In this document: piece by piece, positions 38,956 to 47,588 of the stretch
How the letters are laid out: the number at the start of each line of letters is the position of its first letter
Position numbering within the stretch: position 1 is the stretch's first letter
Assembly: GCA_015231755.1 (NCBI GenBank)
Contig: JADGAZ010000003.1
Location: forward strand, 124,001-188,000
Direction: 5' to 3'
DNA length: 64,000 nt
Source of the DNA: Magnetococcales bacterium
GTDB taxonomy: Bacteria; Pseudomonadota; Magnetococcia; Magnetococcales; Magnetaquicoccaceae
Notes under the pieces: model-generated
What the model was told of the DNA's origin: nothing
Seen by the model: the letters and a program-made list of their open reading frames with translations, nothing else
The model's database searches: none
Program-made: the position numbers and the translations under genes

Positions 38956-40029
38956 ATGACCGATCTGGTCCAACCACACGACAAGCTGTTCAAGGCGTTG
39001 ATGTCCAACCCGGAAACCGCCGGGGCCTTATTGCGTGAACATCTGCCCCAAGAAATCGTCGCCTTGCTGGCTTGCGATCACCCGGAACTGGTCAAAGGTT
39101 CCTTCATCAGTCCGGAGTTGCGCCCTTATTTTTCCGACATGATCTTCAAAGCCAAAACGTTGAGCCTCAAGGATCTGTATTTCTATCTGCTGGTGGAGCA
39201 TAAAAGCTTTCACGACCGCAAAGTGGCTTGGCAGCTCGACCGTGGACGCCACCGCTTCATGGAACAAAAAGAAAAAGAAAATCCGGATTGGCTCACCCTG
39301 CCCGCCATCATCCCCTTCGTGTTGTATCACGGGGCACAGGAGTGGACCATTCCCACCGATTTTCTCTCCCTGGTGGACTGCGATGAGGCCCTGCGGCCAT
39401 GGCTGACCAATTTCACCTATGCGCTGGTCAACATTGGCACGATTCCCGATGACCAACTCTCCACCCATGCCCGGCTCAAAGCCGGTTTGTTGGCCTTGAA
39501 ATATGGAACCCGGGATGCCCAATCCCAAATGGAGGCCCTCGACAGCATCACCCGCGCCCTGATCGAGGCTCCAGAGCTGTTGATCCCGGTGATGATTTAT
39601 CTGTTGACCACCTTTGACTCCCTGGACCAAAATAGTGTGCAGGATATCGTCGTCCAGGTTTCACCACAGGAGGCTCCCATGATGCAATCCATCTATGCGC
39701 GCGAACTCATTGCTCAATACAAAGACACATGGATTCAGGAAGGACTGCTGGCAGGCATTCTGGAAGGCAAACAGGAAGGACTGCTGGAAGGCAAACAAGA
39801 AGGACTGCTGGAAGGCAAACAGGAAGGACTGCTGGAAGGCAAACAAGAAGGCAAACAGGAAGGATTGCTGGAAGGCAAAGCCGAAATGCTGCTCCAACTG
39901 CTTCAAGAACGTTTTGGCGTCATCCCCAAGTCCATTCAAGAACAGGTGACCAGCGCCGGACTGGACGACATGAAAGCCTGGACCAGCCGACTGTTCAAGG
40001 CCGAATCCTTGTCCGCTATTTTCCAATGA
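38956..40029 (+). CDS. Rpn-family recombination-promoting nuclease
   Basis: A 357-residue protein of the Rpn/YhgA family (PD-(D/E)xK nuclease fold). The N-terminus has DKLFKALMSNPETAGALLREHLP, and the active-site residues are seen in YFSDMI (Asp about 54) and YLLVEHKS (ExK about 77-79), as in active E. coli RpnA. The C-terminus holds tandem LLEGKQEG repeats, then a conserved end region LLxLLxERFG. Rpn proteins promote RecA-independent recombination and some act in phage defence. Repeat length probably varies by slippage. It is convergent with the polyferredoxin gene. Confidence 0.88.
   Translation: MTDLVQPHDKLFKALMSNPETAGALLREHLPQEIVALLACDHPELVKGSFISPELRPYFSDMIFKAKTLSLKDLYFYLLVEHKSFHDRKVAWQLDRGRHRFMEQKEKENPDWLTLPAIIPFVLYHGAQEWTIPTDFLSLVDCDEALRPWLTNFTYALVNIGTIPDDQLSTHARLKAGLLALKYGTRDAQSQMEALDSITRALIEAPELLIPVMIYLLTTFDSLDQNSVQDIVVQVSPQEAPMMQSIYARELIAQYKDTWIQEGLLAGILEGKQEGLLEGKQEGLLEGKQEGLLEGKQEGKQEGLLEGKAEMLLQLLQERFGVIPKSIQEQVTSAGLDDMKAWTSRLFKAESLSAIFQ
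39766..39879 (+). repeat. 24-base tandem repeat in the Rpn gene
   Basis: Four near-perfect copies of GGCAAACAGGAAGGACTGCTGGAA plus a 12-base half copy before the last one. Each full unit encodes eight residues (GKQEGLLE), so gain or loss keeps the frame. Confidence 0.9.
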
Positions 40030-40141: not shown

Positions 40142-41692
40142 TCACCCCAATCCTGTGTCAATCGTCCCCTCAATCCACCCGGATTGCTGATTCAACAGCA
40201 TCCGGTTGTCCCCGGAGCGGCTCTCCCCCACCGAAGAGACCCGAATGGCGGCCAGATCCGTCACCGGGCACTTGTTTTCACAGATTCCGCAGCCGATACA
40301 CAGTTCCGGCTGCACAAAAGGACGCTTGAGGGTCACCTTGCGCCCGTCCCGACTGGTGATGGCGACAGTTTCGTACCAGATGGCCTTGGGAGAGGTGGGA
40401 CAGGTCTCTTCGCAGACGATGCAAGGCACATCCATGGCCCAGGGCAAGCAGCGTCCCCGATCGAAAAAGGCAGTCCCCAGACGCACGGGTTTGGTGAAGG
40501 GAGGGGCTCCCACCTTTTCGGCCACGGAGAGGGGACGGATGGCGGCGGTGGGGCAGACCTGACCACACAAGACGCAATGGTGTTCGCAATAGCCGACGGC
40601 ATTCATCAGCAGCGGGGTCCACAACCCCTCGAAGCCGGCTTCGAGCAACGCGGGTTGCAACACGTTGGTGGGGCAGACCCGCATGCACAGACCGCACTTG
40701 ATGCAACGGGCGAGGAATTGGGCTTCCGGCAGAGATCCCGGAGGACGGATCACCTCGGGCGTGGGGGTGGAACGGGGGGACAGGGTGCTGCGGGTCATGG
40801 GAACCGCCACCACCGCGGCCAGGGCGACCTCCACCACCCGACGCCGGTTGAGATCCAACGGCCGCCCGATGGAACTGCGGGAGCCGGCCAGACCATAATG
40901 CAACGCCTGGGTACCACACGCCTCGATGCAGTTCATGCACAGGTGACACTCGGTGTGACGCAGCGCCCCATCCGGGTCCGCTGCGCCCTGACAGGCCCGC
41001 AGGCACTGTTTGCACTGGTTGCACCGGTCCACATCCCGGCGGATGCGCCACAGCGACCACTGGGCGCACCATCCCAGCAAGGCTCCCAGGGGACACAACG
41101 CCCGACACCAGAAACGGGTGATCAAACGGTTGGCCAACAAAATCGCCAGCAGCACCCCACCGATCAACACTCCCCCATGAAAAACCGCCGGCAGGGCGAA
41201 CCATCCCCCGCCACCGGCCCGATCCACGGCGGGCAACAGCGACAAGGTGAAGGAGCGGTAGATCAAGGCGATGGGATCAAGCAGGCCGGTCTGCAAGGAA
41301 CCCAACCCCGCGAAAACCAGCAACACCACCAGCAGGTAATACTTGACACGGTACACAGGGCGATACCGGTTCTCCTCCCACGACTCCACCGCTCGGCGCC
41401 GATGGAAGATGTGACTCAACACCTGATTGACGATCCCCAAAGGACAGATCCAGGAACAAAAAAAACGCCCCAGAAACAAAGTCGGAATCAGGATCAGCAA
41501 AGCCAGGGCCAACCCCTTGTAAAGGGTGTGACTGGTCAGGAATCCCCCCAAAGCGGTGAGTGGATCCAGTTGCAAAAACAGGCCGACCTCAAACCCCTTG
41601 AGGCGCTCGAACTCCCCGGCCCACAAAAGAAATCCAAACAGGCCCAGAAAGAAGGCCGCGTAAATCCGTCTGACACCCCGCAAACCGCCCAT
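40142..41692 (-). CDS. NapH/NosR-type membrane polyferredoxin
   Basis: A 516-residue integral membrane iron-sulfur protein. The N-terminal half has about five membrane helices and two CxxxCP signatures (FFCSWICPLG, FWCRALCPLG) of the NapH/NosR/RdxA group. At least six Cys clusters follow, among them CNQCKQCLRAC, CHLCMNCIEAC, CIKCGLCMRVCP and CIGCGICENKCP, enough for several [4Fe-4S] clusters; a further helix lies near residues 285-300. The role is likely electron transfer between quinol or the cytoplasm and exported redox partners. Last gene of a four-gene operon. The electron donor is unknown. Confidence 0.88.
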   Translation of the reverse strand: MGGLRGVRRIYAAFFLGLFGFLLWAGEFERLKGFEVGLFLQLDPLTALGGFLTSHTLYKGLALALLILIPTLFLGRFFCSWICPLGIVNQVLSHIFHRRRAVESWEENRYRPVYRVKYYLLVVLLVFAGLGSLQTGLLDPIALIYRSFTLSLLPAVDRAGGGGWFALPAVFHGGVLIGGVLLAILLANRLITRFWCRALCPLGALLGWCAQWSLWRIRRDVDRCNQCKQCLRACQGAADPDGALRHTECHLCMNCIEACGTQALHYGLAGSRSSIGRPLDLNRRRVVEVALAAVVAVPMTRSTLSPRSTPTPEVIRPPGSLPEAQFLARCIKCGLCMRVCPTNVLQPALLEAGFEGLWTPLLMNAVGYCEHHCVLCGQVCPTAAIRPLSVAEKVGAPPFTKPVRLGTAFFDRGRCLPWAMDVPCIVCEETCPTSPKAIWYETVAITSRDGRKVTLKRPFVQPELCIGCGICENKCPVTDLAAIRVSSVGESRSGDNRMLLNQQSGWIEGTIDTGLG

Positions 41693-41701
41693 GCCGTCCC
41701 C

Positions 41702-42712
41702 CTATCCCACCTGGGAGCGAACCACGTTCAGATCGCGCCAAGCGACCTTGCCCAATCCACGAGCCTCGGCCAGAGCCAGAAATGGCACCGCCTCGGGAGC
41801 AAGATCCAGAAAGCTCAAACAGAAGCTGTCCAAAGCCACCTCATCCAACGAGGCGATGATGGTCTCCTCCCGGGCCACATCCGCCGGATTGCCACCCGTG
41901 GGACCATTGCGTTTCAGCACCCGCGTGGCATCCATCACCGTCAAAGTGGGACGCACCGCCGCCGCCAGATCCACAATGGAGTCGTGAATGGACTGATGCA
42001 GCCGATTGCGTTGTCCGCCGATCACCCCATACCAGTTTTTCATGGCCAGGGTACATCCCGACAGGGAGTGATGCTTGACAATGGGCAGGTTGATCACCTT
42101 GTCCACCTCGTGGAAGAAACGGGCCACGGGCCACACCTTGAGTACCTTGCCACCCATCTCCGTGGCCACGAAGTCGTCCCGACCCGGCAGACGCACCTGC
42201 CCACCCCCGGCCACCGTGGCGGCCTCGATCCCCGAACGGGCAAAACAGCGTCTGGGATCGTTCAACGACACGTCCGTCACCCACACCGAGGCGGCTCCGG
42301 CCTCGCGACAGATCCGCACCATGGCCTCCACCAACTCCGGACCGGTATTGGCGGCCTGTTCCGGCTGCCGGTCCCAACCCACATTGGGTTTCAGCAACAC
42401 CCGATCCCCCCGTTGGATGAAACGGGCCACGCCTCCCAGCTTGCCCACCGACTCTTGCACCATGGCCTCGACCCGGGTGCCGCGCACCACGGCCATCACC
42501 GGTCGCAATGGATCCGGGGCCACGCGGAAATCCTTGAAACGCGCCACCTGCACCGCTCCCTGACGAATCGGCTGGTCGCTGTAGACGACATATCCCCCCA
42601 CCGCCAGACCGGCAGCGACACCGGTCAAACCCGCCGCCCGGCCCAGAAACGCCCGGCGGCTCAAAAGCGGTTCGGTCTCAAGAACGGGGTTCGTCGTGCT
42701 GCGTCTGGCCAC
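41702..42712 (-). CDS. Tat-exported DUF362 protein
   Basis: A 336-residue DUF362 protein. The N-terminus carries a twin-arginine signal (LSRRAFLGRAAGLTGVAAG, about 18-36), so the folded protein should be exported. The body has the family's KPNVGWDR near 108, VTDVSLNDPRR and NLPIVKHHSLSGCTLAMKN. DUF362 members often sit with ferredoxins, and some carry Fe-S clusters; here no ferredoxin motif is present, so the adjacent membrane polyferredoxin may supply it. Start is GTG at 42712 with AAGGAG upstream; it overlaps the upstream gene by 35 bases. Function unknown. Confidence 0.82.
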   Translation of the reverse strand: MARRSTTNPVLETEPLLSRRAFLGRAAGLTGVAAGLAVGGYVVYSDQPIRQGAVQVARFKDFRVAPDPLRPVMAVVRGTRVEAMVQESVGKLGGVARFIQRGDRVLLKPNVGWDRQPEQAANTGPELVEAMVRICREAGAASVWVTDVSLNDPRRCFARSGIEAATVAGGGQVRLPGRDDFVATEMGGKVLKVWPVARFFHEVDKVINLPIVKHHSLSGCTLAMKNWYGVIGGQRNRLHQSIHDSIVDLAAAVRPTLTVMDATRVLKRNGPTGGNPADVAREETIIASLDEVALDSFCLSFLDLAPEAVPFLALAEARGLGKVAWRDLNVVRSQVG

Positions 42713-43670
42713 GGTTCACAAACTCCTTCAACGGGGTCCATGCGGCATCCAGGGGAATCCCGAACGCGCCGATCACCTGCTCCTGGGTGCGCAGGAAAAA
42801 CCACTCCCCTTCATACGGGTCTTGCACCTGAAAAAGCACCAACCCCTCTTTTTCCAGCCGTTCCACGGGGATTTCCTCCCCCTTGAGGAAAGCCAGCAGT
42901 TTGGACTCCAGTTCCAGGTTCCGGGCCTCGGAACCCATCACCTGGAAAGCCTGAATGGTCTGATCGCCCCTTTGAAACGACCGTTCGACCACCTGATCGA
43001 AAAAATCCAATCCCCGATAATTCTCCTTGATGAAACGGGTGGCCAACGGTTTGCCGAACTCCGGAAAACGAAACCCTTGCGCCTTGGCCACTCCGGCCTG
43101 CCCCATGGCCTTGACCAGGGCCTGTCCCATGGCCTTCAGAGGCGCCCCCTCGTCGAAAGCGGTCATCTTGACGTAATAAGGACCGGAGATGAAACGCAAT
43201 CCCCGGGACTCGGCAAATCCCATCTCTCCCACTCCCGCCTCCGGTCCCCCGTCTCCGCCTTCCCCGGTCAACACGCCGAAGGCGAACAGCGGCTTGCCCA
43301 TGTCGTACAGATCCACCACCACCTTGGGGCGGGAGGCCTCCTGCGGCAGACCGTACTCCCCCACCACCAACTCCTTGAACCCGGCGGAGATGAAAAACTC
43401 CGCATGTCCATTGACATATTCATGCAGGCTTTCCCGATCGAAACGCCGGGTCTCCCCGAGGCGCGCCAATCCTTCGGCCCGCTCGGGAAACAGGGCGACC
43501 AGGGGAGACAACCGGGCCGCAGCGTTCTTGAAATCCAGCAGACCCGGATCATACCGCTGCCCCTCCCAATAGACTCCCCAGGCGATCAGCGGCAACAGGG
43601 CCAACAGTCCCACCCGCGCCCGACCCACGCCGACGGACTCCTGACGCGTCGCTCCCCGGATCCCGGCCAT
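42678..43670 (-). CDS. DUF6599-like anchored protein
   Basis: A 330-residue protein that I tentatively place in DUF6599, recalled rather than searched. One N-terminal hydrophobic segment (about 18-36) acts as signal anchor, and the remainder appears extracytoplasmic. Recognisable stretches are LHEYVNGHAEFFISAGFKEL and YVKMTAFDEG, seen in homologues next to Fe-S operons in other bacteria. No cysteines are present after the anchor, so it does not bind clusters itself. ATG 43670 begins one base after the aldo/keto reductase stop; the longer frame start upstream lies inside that gene. Probably a structural or regulatory part of the redox module. Confidence 0.65.
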   Translation of the reverse strand: MAGIRGATRQESVGVGRARVGLLALLPLIAWGVYWEGQRYDPGLLDFKNAAARLSPLVALFPERAEGLARLGETRRFDRESLHEYVNGHAEFFISAGFKELVVGEYGLPQEASRPKVVVDLYDMGKPLFAFGVLTGEGGDGGPEAGVGEMGFAESRGLRFISGPYYVKMTAFDEGAPLKAMGQALVKAMGQAGVAKAQGFRFPEFGKPLATRFIKENYRGLDFFDQVVERSFQRGDQTIQAFQVMGSEARNLELESKLLAFLKGEEIPVERLEKEGLVLFQVQDPYEGEWFFLRTQEQVIGAFGIPLDAAWTPLKEFVNRGQTQHDEPRS

Positions 43671-43671
43671 G

Positions 43672-44901
43672 TCAGGCGACCACCGGCTCCAAAGAGAGGG
43701 TACGATGGGCGGCCCGCAGTTTGGAACCCACCGATACACCATACCCACAGGCCCGATCGCAAGCCGCATCGGTGCAATCTGCGCACACTCCGGCATTGGG
43801 TTGCATGCTGGCATAGGCCTGCATGGCCCGTTTTTCGTCCCCGTAATCCTCAAAATACATCTGATGACGCAGAATCGTGGCCACATCCACCCCCTTGTCA
43901 CAGGCCTCCAGACAGTCGCCGCACCCGGTGCGGCAGTAGTCCGCGCCATGCAGGGCCGCATAGTGATCCAAAACCCGCTGATCCGCGGCGGTCAGCGGTT
44001 GACCCGAGGCAGGCAGGAACAGATCCAGATCCTGGGCCGACTGGATGGTGATCACCAATCCGCTGATTTCCGCATGGGACAAGGCCCACTTGAAGGCCGC
44101 CTGCTCGAACTGGCCGGCATCGAACTTCATGCCACTCTCTTTCGCCCCGGCCAACACCTTCATGGCCACCACCCCCACCCCTTTGGCCTTGGCCTCCTGG
44201 AGTACCTCTGGCACCTTGGGAAATTTCATGAAATTGAACGCCGGCATGATGTAATCGAAATGCCCCGATTGCACCGCTGCGGTCATGAGCCGTTCCATAT
44301 GGTTGGGACCGTGGGAGGAGGCCGCCAGAAAACGAATCTTGCCGGCTTTTTTCAAGGTTTCGGTGGCGGCGAGCATTTCCGGATCCAACAGCCGGGCCTT
44401 TTCCGCCTCGAAATCGGTGCTTTCGCCGATGGCGTGGACAAACACCGTATCCACATAGTCGGTACCCAGTCGCTTGAGGCTGTTTTCCACCGCCCCGATG
44501 TAGTCCGCCTGTTTGGAACCCACCTGGAGATGACTCTTGCCCGCCTGATAGGTGATGGGCTGACAATATTTGGAGGCGATATGAATCTTGTCCCGCCCCT
44601 TGGCCTTGCGGAGAGCCTCGCCGATCAGGTCTTCGCTCTGACCGTAATCCGGGGCGGTATCAAAATAATTCATGCCCCGGTCCATGGCCCGCAACACCAG
44701 GGAACTGGAGGCCAGCCGTCCGGCCCCGAAGGAAATATCGCTGATGTTCATGCCGGTTTTGCCCAAGGCGCGATAGGAACGTACCCGGGCCTTCTCCTTG
44801 CCGGCTGACCCATCGCTCTCTGCGGCGACCGCACGGGCGGCGACCGGCACTCCACTGGCCGCCAACAGGGCGGCGGATTGAATGAATGTCCTGCGTTTCA
44901 T
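43672..44901 (-). CDS. Tat-exported aldo/keto reductase with C-terminal Fe-S motifs
   Basis: A 409-residue protein: twin-arginine signal (KRRTFIQSAALLAASG), an AKR barrel with the catalytic tetrad D81, Y86, K111 and H156, and a C-terminal extension with two Cys groups, C323-C327-C330-C334 and C373-C376-C381-C385. The latter are suited to [4Fe-4S] clusters, so electrons could come from a ferredoxin rather than NADPH, which is absent in the periplasm. ATG 44901 follows GGGAGG. It is the first gene of the four-gene operon. A conserved AKR plus ferredoxin-like tail is known in bacteria, but its substrate is not. Confidence 0.88.
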   Translation of the reverse strand: MKRRTFIQSAALLAASGVPVAARAVAAESDGSAGKEKARVRSYRALGKTGMNISDISFGAGRLASSSLVLRAMDRGMNYFDTAPDYGQSEDLIGEALRKAKGRDKIHIASKYCQPITYQAGKSHLQVGSKQADYIGAVENSLKRLGTDYVDTVFVHAIGESTDFEAEKARLLDPEMLAATETLKKAGKIRFLAASSHGPNHMERLMTAAVQSGHFDYIMPAFNFMKFPKVPEVLQEAKAKGVGVVAMKVLAGAKESGMKFDAGQFEQAAFKWALSHAEISGLVITIQSAQDLDLFLPASGQPLTAADQRVLDHYAALHGADYCRTGCGDCLEACDKGVDVATILRHQMYFEDYGDEKRAMQAYASMQPNAGVCADCTDAACDRACGYGVSVGSKLRAAHRTLSLEPVVA

Positions 44902-47075: not shown

Positions 47076-47588
47076 TCAGTGACGATGCTCGCTTTCCGGG
47101 GCGGGCCGAGGGTCATTCACGCCGGCGGGAGTGGTGGGCATATCACATTTCTTGCCGGGTTTATTGTGCTGCGCTTTGTTGCATTTCGGCTTGGATTTGC
47201 AAGACTTTTTGCAGGATTTACCCGGATGCTTGCAGCATTTCTTGCACTGGCCGGACTTGTGGTTGCACTGGCCCGCCTTGGCACACTTGCCCTGTTTCAT
47301 CTCCGCAGGAGAGCAGGTTTTCTTGCAGCACCCTTTGCAATCGGCACATCCTTGACCACTTGAGGTCATATTACCCGCTCCCATGCCTGATTTACCCATT
47401 GCCGGGGCCTGTTCCGGCGCCATGACGGCCTGGGCGGAAGGCGCCGGATGGATGGGGGCAACCGCTTCAGGCGCCATGTTCACAGGCTCGGAATTGGTCT
47501 CGTTGGTTGCACATCCGGAGAGACCCAACACGAAAACAAGGCCGATCATGAACATCATGCGCGGCATCCACCCCTTGTTGCTGTTCAT
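47076..47588 (-). CDS. cysteine-rich lipoprotein
   Basis: A 170-residue protein with a lipoprotein signal (LGLSGC, acylated Cys26). A Pro/Ala/Met-rich linker is followed by a segment (about 95-155) holding 14 cysteines, many Lys and spaced as CxxC, CC and KSC groups: GCADCKGCCKKTC, QCKKCC, SCKKSC. Neither domain nor fold is recognised. Such density in an anchored lipoprotein suggests metal binding like a metallothionein, or a disulfide-rich module. ATG 47588 follows GGGAG. It lies between metF and a coiled-coil gene, on the same strand as both. Confidence 0.75.
   Translation of the reverse strand: MNSNKGWMPRMMFMIGLVFVLGLSGCATNETNSEPVNMAPEAVAPIHPAPSAQAVMAPEQAPAMGKSGMGAGNMTSSGQGCADCKGCCKKTCSPAEMKQGKCAKAGQCNHKSGQCKKCCKHPGKSCKKSCKSKPKCNKAQHNKPGKKCDMPTTPAGVNDPRPAPESEHRH

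Follow-up and report, generated by a model that had tools for sequence, protein, structure and literature searches.

We analysed a stretch of 64,000 nucleotides (hereafter the window) on contig C3 of a Magnetococcales genome, G000 (G and L designate the genomes and the loci compared), in which four open reading frames (ORFs) are transcribed from the minus strand between positions 40142 and 44901. In the order of transcription, they encode an aldo/keto reductase (AKR), a DUF6599 protein, a DUF362 protein and a membrane polyferredoxin (Table 1). A Pfam scan of the four proteins gave PF00248, PF20244, PF04015 and Fer4 families, each above cut-off. The AKR and DUF6599 genes are separated by a 1-base gap, the DUF6599 and DUF362 genes overlap by 35 bases, and 9 bases lie between the DUF362 and polyferredoxin genes. 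An earlier description made from the letters of the window (the sequence-only reading) had reported the same ORFs, gap and overlap sizes, twin-arginine translocation (Tat) motifs and cysteine groups, all of which were recovered when we derived them again from the sequence. It had also placed the AKR at the centre of the module; the strongest evidence centres instead on the DUF362 protein, with its predicted LarA fold and its link to genes of the nickel-pincer nucleotide (NPN).

Table 1. Positions, within the window, of the four ORFs and of their conserved features.
Feature	Coordinates	Strand	Remarks
AKR with C-terminal double four-Cys domain, 409 aa	43672..44901	-	ATG start; PF00248 1e-30
DUF6599 protein, signal-anchored, 330 aa	42678..43670	-	ATG start; PF20244 1.5e-25
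Tat-type DUF362 protein, LarA fold (predicted), 336 aa	41702..42712	-	GTG start; PF04015 6e-53
NapH-NapG-like membrane polyferredoxin, 516 aa	40142..41692	-	ATG start; Fer4 families, NapG and NapH NCBIfam partial matches
Tat-type signal of AKR (MKRRTF...)	44821..44901	-	R3 84/86, R4 85/86, F6 84/86 relatives; export predicted
AKR first four-Cys group, C323-x3-C327-x2-C330-x3-C334	43900..43935	-	each Cys 86/86
AKR second four-Cys group, C373-x2-C376-x4-C381-x3-C385	43747..43785	-	85-86 of 86
DUF362 H215, aligned to LarA catalytic His174	42068..42070	-	63/63
DUF362 K225, aligned to LarA Lys184 (NPN tether)	42038..42040	-	63/63
DUF362 H239, corresponding to LarA nickel ligand His200	41996..41998	-	63/63
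Polyferredoxin internal RRR (R283-R285) before last hydrophobic segment	40838..40846	-	R284, R285 44/44; putative second, Tat-type export signal

The four-gene operon is real, widespread and conserved as a unit across several phyla. The AKR was found in 44 of the 48 Magnetococcia genomes and the DUF6599 protein in 43 of them, mostly together. The sequence-only reading had made its proposal depend on neighbours being conserved beyond this genome, and they are: the complete order was kept in 18 of the 20 Magnetococcia loci read out and in 48 of the 80 loci returned by a scan of the whole collection, many of the shortfalls being contig ends. The hosts of these 80 loci are Magnetococcales, Nitrospirota, Nitrospinota, a few Gammaproteobacteria and one deltaproteobacterial metagenome-assembled genome (MAG). 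Besides the Magnetococcia, where it is nearly universal, the operon was found in the same order in Nitrospirota, Nitrospinota, one Gammaproteobacterium and the deltaproteobacterial MAG, while DUF6599 and DUF362 were absent from all 251 other Pseudomonadota genomes. Many of the hosts are magnetotactic; a special tie to the magnetosome was rejected, as Nitrospirota not known to be magnetotactic also carry the module.

The PF04015 match of the window DUF362 protein reaches 180 bits, for a cut-off of 24. When its AlphaFold model (pLDDT 91) was compared with the PDB, ranks 1 to 18 were all LarA-family structures (E 1.3e-6 to 1.5e-4, probability 1.00), and the first match outside this family came at E 9.5e-3. 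This predicted LarA fold is overlooked in the sequence-only reading. Both DUF362 and LarA's DUF2088 belong to Pfam clan CL0471 (PMC11770544). A sequence search of solved structures with DUF362 gave nothing relevant, and profile alignments built from few sequences left DUF362 and LarA unconnected. A later profile-profile alignment (E 2e-4) paired H215, K225 and H239 of the window protein with H174, K184 and H200 of LarA (numbering of PDB 5huq), and the spacing of 10 residues between H215 and K225 is the same as between H174 and K184. In LarA, His174 is a catalytic acid/base, Lys184 the covalent link to NPN and His200 the nickel ligand (PMC12611868; for Lys184 also PMC11796402). In four distant DUF362 proteins, the first His and the Lys are retained and a His lies close to the third position; a DUF362 protein of Parabacteroides retains H215 and K225 and has a His close to the position of H239. 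By profile, DUF362 falls outside the LarA family, but it probably uses the same kind of cofactor; the modelled fold and the aligned residues suggest that it binds NPN.

We searched for a fifth conserved gene of the operon by clustering all neighbours, and only lar genes and lineage-specific neighbours emerged. The one recurrent extra set was LarC, LarB and LarE, above NCBIfam cut-offs. Four loci (L281 and L283, from one genus within the window's family, and L113 and L115, which are of the same type) have larC-larB-larE immediately downstream of the polyferredoxin gene; in L283, L113 and L115, the stop of this gene and the start of larC share four bases (ATGA). In another Magnetococcia family (L096, L099 and L285), larE comes directly after the polyferredoxin gene, with zero gap in L096 and L099, and larB and larC lie opposite. 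Independently, the polyferredoxin gene of a Gammaproteobacterium (L097) is immediately followed by a divergent larC (33% identical), and larE and larB come about 4 kb further. That separate lineages show three different lar arrangements speaks against a frozen accident. G000 itself has larC and larB side by side on contig C32 (L277).

Co-occurrence counts, which are uncorrected for relatedness, go in the same direction. LarC was detected in 41 of the 48 Magnetococcia genomes and LarA (PF09861) in none of the 48. Among the 27 high-quality Magnetococcia genomes, 25 have LarC, including 25 out of 25 of those with the operon; the two without LarC (G020 and G011) also have neither AKR, DUF6599 nor DUF362 (Fisher p 0.003). 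Of 43 AKR-bearing genomes outside the Magnetococcia, 40 have LarC, which is otherwise rare in the other Pseudomonadota (8 of the 251). In a draw of Nitrospirota genomes, it was present in 18 out of 18 DUF6599-positive genomes vs. 135 out of 180 others (p 0.008). LarA itself was found in 7 of 54 genomes with module genes, vs. 5 of 8 LarC-bearing Pseudomonadota without the module. DUF362 is single-copy in every Magnetococcia genome that has it, except for two copies in G013. Two control genomes, those of Synechococcus elongatus and Haloferax volcanii, likewise combine LarC and DUF362 with the absence of LarA. Judging from sequence and model, DUF362 may be a candidate user of the nickel-pincer cofactor in organisms that make NPN but have no LarA.

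The other proteins of the operon point to export and electron transfer. Six four-Cys groups and two CxxxCP motifs are present in the polyferredoxin; across 44 relatives, the cluster Cys are retained apart from a single His at C376. Its internal RR motif is absent from the sequence-only reading. The layout is the one met in dual Sec-Tat polyferredoxins, i.e. a NapH-like part, an RR motif before the last membrane segment and a NapG-like part with four cluster motifs. The MLMS-1 polyferredoxin of the NapH-NapG fusion family has the same internal feature, and its assembly was shown to depend on Sec and Tat (PMC5449189). The partial NapH and NapG matches and the conserved Cys groups agree with a NapH/NapG-type polyferredoxin that could wire the membrane to the periplasm, which supports the sequence-only reading, where it was called NapH/NosR-like. 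The two Tat-type signals that it had pointed out are also borne out by comparison, their RR-x-F motifs being conserved in the 86 AKR relatives and in the 63 DUF362 relatives (R20 in 63/63 and R19 in 62/63); both proteins are predicted to be exported. The DUF6599 protein carries a signal anchor, again as first described. Its AlphaFold model is confident (pLDDT 90), and no clear structural match was found by fold search: the single weak match was TP0453 (E 7e-4, TM 0.27), with DcrB- and Dip2269-like proteins ranked lower. It may serve as an anchor or scaffold.

The full catalytic tetrad of the AKR (D81, Y86, K111 and H156) is present in all 86 relatives and its two C-terminal four-Cys groups are essentially invariant, in line with what had been read in the window. 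C113, two residues past the catalytic Lys, is also found in 86 out of 86. The residues on the NADPH side are poorly kept among the same relatives: the adenine-side Glu-Asn is replaced and Gln occurs at position 219 in only 11 of the 86; a K/R at one NAD(P)H-binding position is kept in 70 of them. An apparent in-frame TGA in two AKR matches (G027 and G032) was discarded; the strand-correct matches (L034 and L035) extend to residue 406 of 409, so that the normal C-terminal stop is the likely reason. AKR genes are tandemly duplicated at the head of the operon in L094 (1300-3791) and L116 (3692-5413), and stand-alone AKR paralogues with about 50% identity to the module AKR occur in L154, L155, L156, L157 and L160.

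Taken together, we lean, with a little more than even confidence, towards a redox module that is exported and linked to quinones, with NPN or a closely related cofactor on its DUF362 subunit. The DUF362 protein would receive NPN or a close derivative while still in the cytoplasm and then be exported folded via Tat. The Tat pathway exports folded, cofactor-loaded proteins, and this route fits the synthesis of NPN in the cytoplasm. In the loaded protein, NPN would be tethered to K225, with H239 on the nickel and H215 as acid/base. The NapH part of the polyferredoxin would sit in the membrane, its NapG part being moved to the periplasm by the internal Tat signal, and the protein would mediate electron exchange of the quinone pool with the periplasm. 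The AKR, with two putative iron-sulphur (Fe-S) groups, would be kept at the membrane together with the anchor protein DUF6599 and might act as an electron relay and/or as a second active site on a carbonyl or hydroxy substrate. Hydride equivalents would move in the form of electrons between the quinone pool and DUF362, the AKR or both. In LarA, a hydride is transferred from the hydroxy acid to NPN and back, resulting in racemisation. Here, by comparison with this give-back, the Fe-S wiring could let the NPN hydride exit as electrons, resulting in net oxidation or reduction.

Several observations weigh against this interpretation. The TM-scores of the DUF362 model to LarA are moderate (0.39-0.48) and the fold is a prediction. 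By sequence, the profile match between DUF362 and LarA is weak (probability 46% in an uncalibrated pairwise run) and appeared only after both alignments had been widened. The Pfam scan of the window protein gives PF04015 alone, with no match to PF09861, the LarA N-domain, and the other catalytic His of LarA, H108, has no counterpart in DUF362, which has DVSxND at that place. larE was not located in G000, where no genome-wide larE search was made; it was seen in relatives. Much of the co-occurrence of LarC with the module is shared ancestry. LarC is also common (75%) in Nitrospirota without DUF6599, and the joint absence from G020 and G011 is possibly one gap or deletion, as these genes adjoin each other in those lineages; incomplete assemblies weaken this result further. 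Among the controls, Bacteroides ihuae has DUF362 and no LarC. Together with this, the retention of H215 and K225 in the Parabacteroides DUF362, where a His lies close to the H239 position, means that these residues need not signify NPN in every DUF362 protein. Corynebacterium glutamicum and Methanocaldococcus jannaschii have LarC and neither DUF362 nor LarA, so that other NPN clients must exist. With exceptions on both sides, DUF362 as a marker of NPN is not a universal rule. Finally, AKR-DUF6599 pairs without an adjacent DUF362 or polyferredoxin gene were found at L091, L138, L140, L145, L146 and L147 (10 kb were read downstream of the pair in L145 and L147). At a Parabacteroides locus (L266, 5887-8424), the gene after Tat-DUF362 encodes a NapH-NapG-like polyferredoxin that carries SRRTFL as an internal signal, with no AKR or DUF6599 adjacent. 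The module therefore seems to be built of two halves.

That AKR-DUF6599 pairs can stand alone favours the view held in the sequence-only reading, i.e. a periplasmic aldehyde or ketone reductase in which the polyferredoxin gives quinol electrons to the AKR, Fe-S groups replace NADPH, and DUF362 and DUF6599 are accessory. The essentially invariant tetrad and eight Cys of the AKR, and the loss of the NADPH-holding residues of ordinary AKRs, also speak for it. However, it leaves unexplained the adjacency of larC, larB and larE, the predicted LarA fold of DUF362 and its invariant His/Lys/His, and we consider it unlikely. Of the earlier interpretation as a whole, the conserved operon, the Tat-type signals, the anchor and the polyferredoxin hold, but DUF362 and DUF6599 as cluster-bearing parts are not supported: the DUF6599 protein has zero Cys and the window DUF362 protein has no ferredoxin motif. 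Alternatively, DUF362 might combine a LarA fold with another cofactor or metal, the lar linkage resulting from a different NPN client or from a shared nickel/redox regulon. The DUF362 of B. ihuae without LarC and the LarC genomes without both DUF362 and LarA would fit this, but DUF362-bearing Magnetococcia have LarC without LarA and a single DUF362 (G013 apart), and three lineages have lar genes next to the operon, in differing orders, which makes it improbable in our view. Lactate racemase feeds stereospecific dehydrogenases, and DUF362 could by analogy be a redox-neutral periplasmic NPN racemase or epimerase on a hydroxy compound, with the AKR and polyferredoxin then oxidising or reducing one isomer. 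This is the least probable of the explanations, despite the predicted LarA fold, the cofactor residues and the association of several groups of LarA homologues with oxidoreductase and dehydrogenase genes (PMC7583248), as two-base racemisation requires two His, H108 is lost, and no lactate racemase activity was seen in a LarA homologue left with one catalytic His (in that case, H174 is the missing one; PMC12611868).

If the DUF362 protein of an exported, quinone-linked module does carry NPN, the consequences would extend beyond this operon. In a previous study, about 15% of the genomes analysed had larB, larC and larE but no larA; a user of NPN other than LarA is expected there, especially in cyanobacteria, and which protein this is forms an open question (PMC11796402). 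The evidence points to DUF362, LarA-like in its predicted fold but highly divergent in sequence, as such a user, at least in Magnetococcia and in the relatives that share the module, and makes the question testable. More tentatively, and with clearly less than even confidence, DUF362 could be the missing second class of NPN enzymes, serving many of the genomes with larB, larC and larE but without larA; here, it would be exported and wired to quinones, driving net redox chemistry outside the cytoplasm. This would provide a first functional lead for DUF362, a large domain of unknown function, would place an organometallic cofactor in the periplasm, and would mean that NPN hydride chemistry, otherwise known only from isomerases, can couple to respiration. 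Our literature search, which covered a limited set of papers, did not find DUF362 proposed as an NPN user, and searching for DUF362, DUF6599, PF04015 and COG2006 did not find a functional study.

Two other ORFs were noted around the operon. At 38956-40029 (+), an ORF that looks by eye like an Rpn/PD-(D/E)XK-type protein contains in-frame GLLEGKQE repeats, and a relative with 39% identity sits between the AKR and DUF6599 genes in L039 (7870-8880). At 47076-47588 (-), a lipoprotein-like ORF of 170 aa has a very Cys- and Lys-rich tail (CADCKGCCKKTCS...) with a metallothionein-like look.

Each part of the module can be compared with known systems. The AKR shares its catalytic tetrad with ordinary AKRs (PF00248) and a similar C-terminal double Cys domain with cytosolic Fe-S AKRs; unlike both, it has a Tat-type signal, an altered Cys spacing (CxxxCxxCxxxC), non-conserved NADPH-side residues and the invariant C113. 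The ferredoxin-like AKRs of COG1453 type are among its nearest known counterparts. The Tat-DUF362 and polyferredoxin pair of Bacteroidota (Parabacteroides, L266) has, as in the module, the conserved His/Lys residues in DUF362 and a NapH-NapG-like polyferredoxin with an internal signal, but AKR and DUF6599 are not adjacent, and LarC is absent from the single Bacteroides control genome. With the polytopic polyferredoxin of PMC5449189 and the NapGH quinol dehydrogenase, the window polyferredoxin has in common the CxxxCP membrane part, the cytoplasmic clusters, the internal Tat motif and the four periplasmic cluster motifs. In contrast to these systems, no nitrate reductase is nearby; PMC5449189 does not mention the partners present here, which are the AKR, DUF6599, DUF362 and lar genes. 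Finally, DUF362 differs from the LarA family (DUF2088; PDB 5huq, 6c1w and 9eia) by having no PF09861 match, one catalytic His fewer, a shorter C-terminal part, a Tat-type signal and a tie to Fe-S electron-transfer genes, but shares with it the predicted fold, the positions of His174, Lys184 and His200, and the genomic link to larB, larC and larE.

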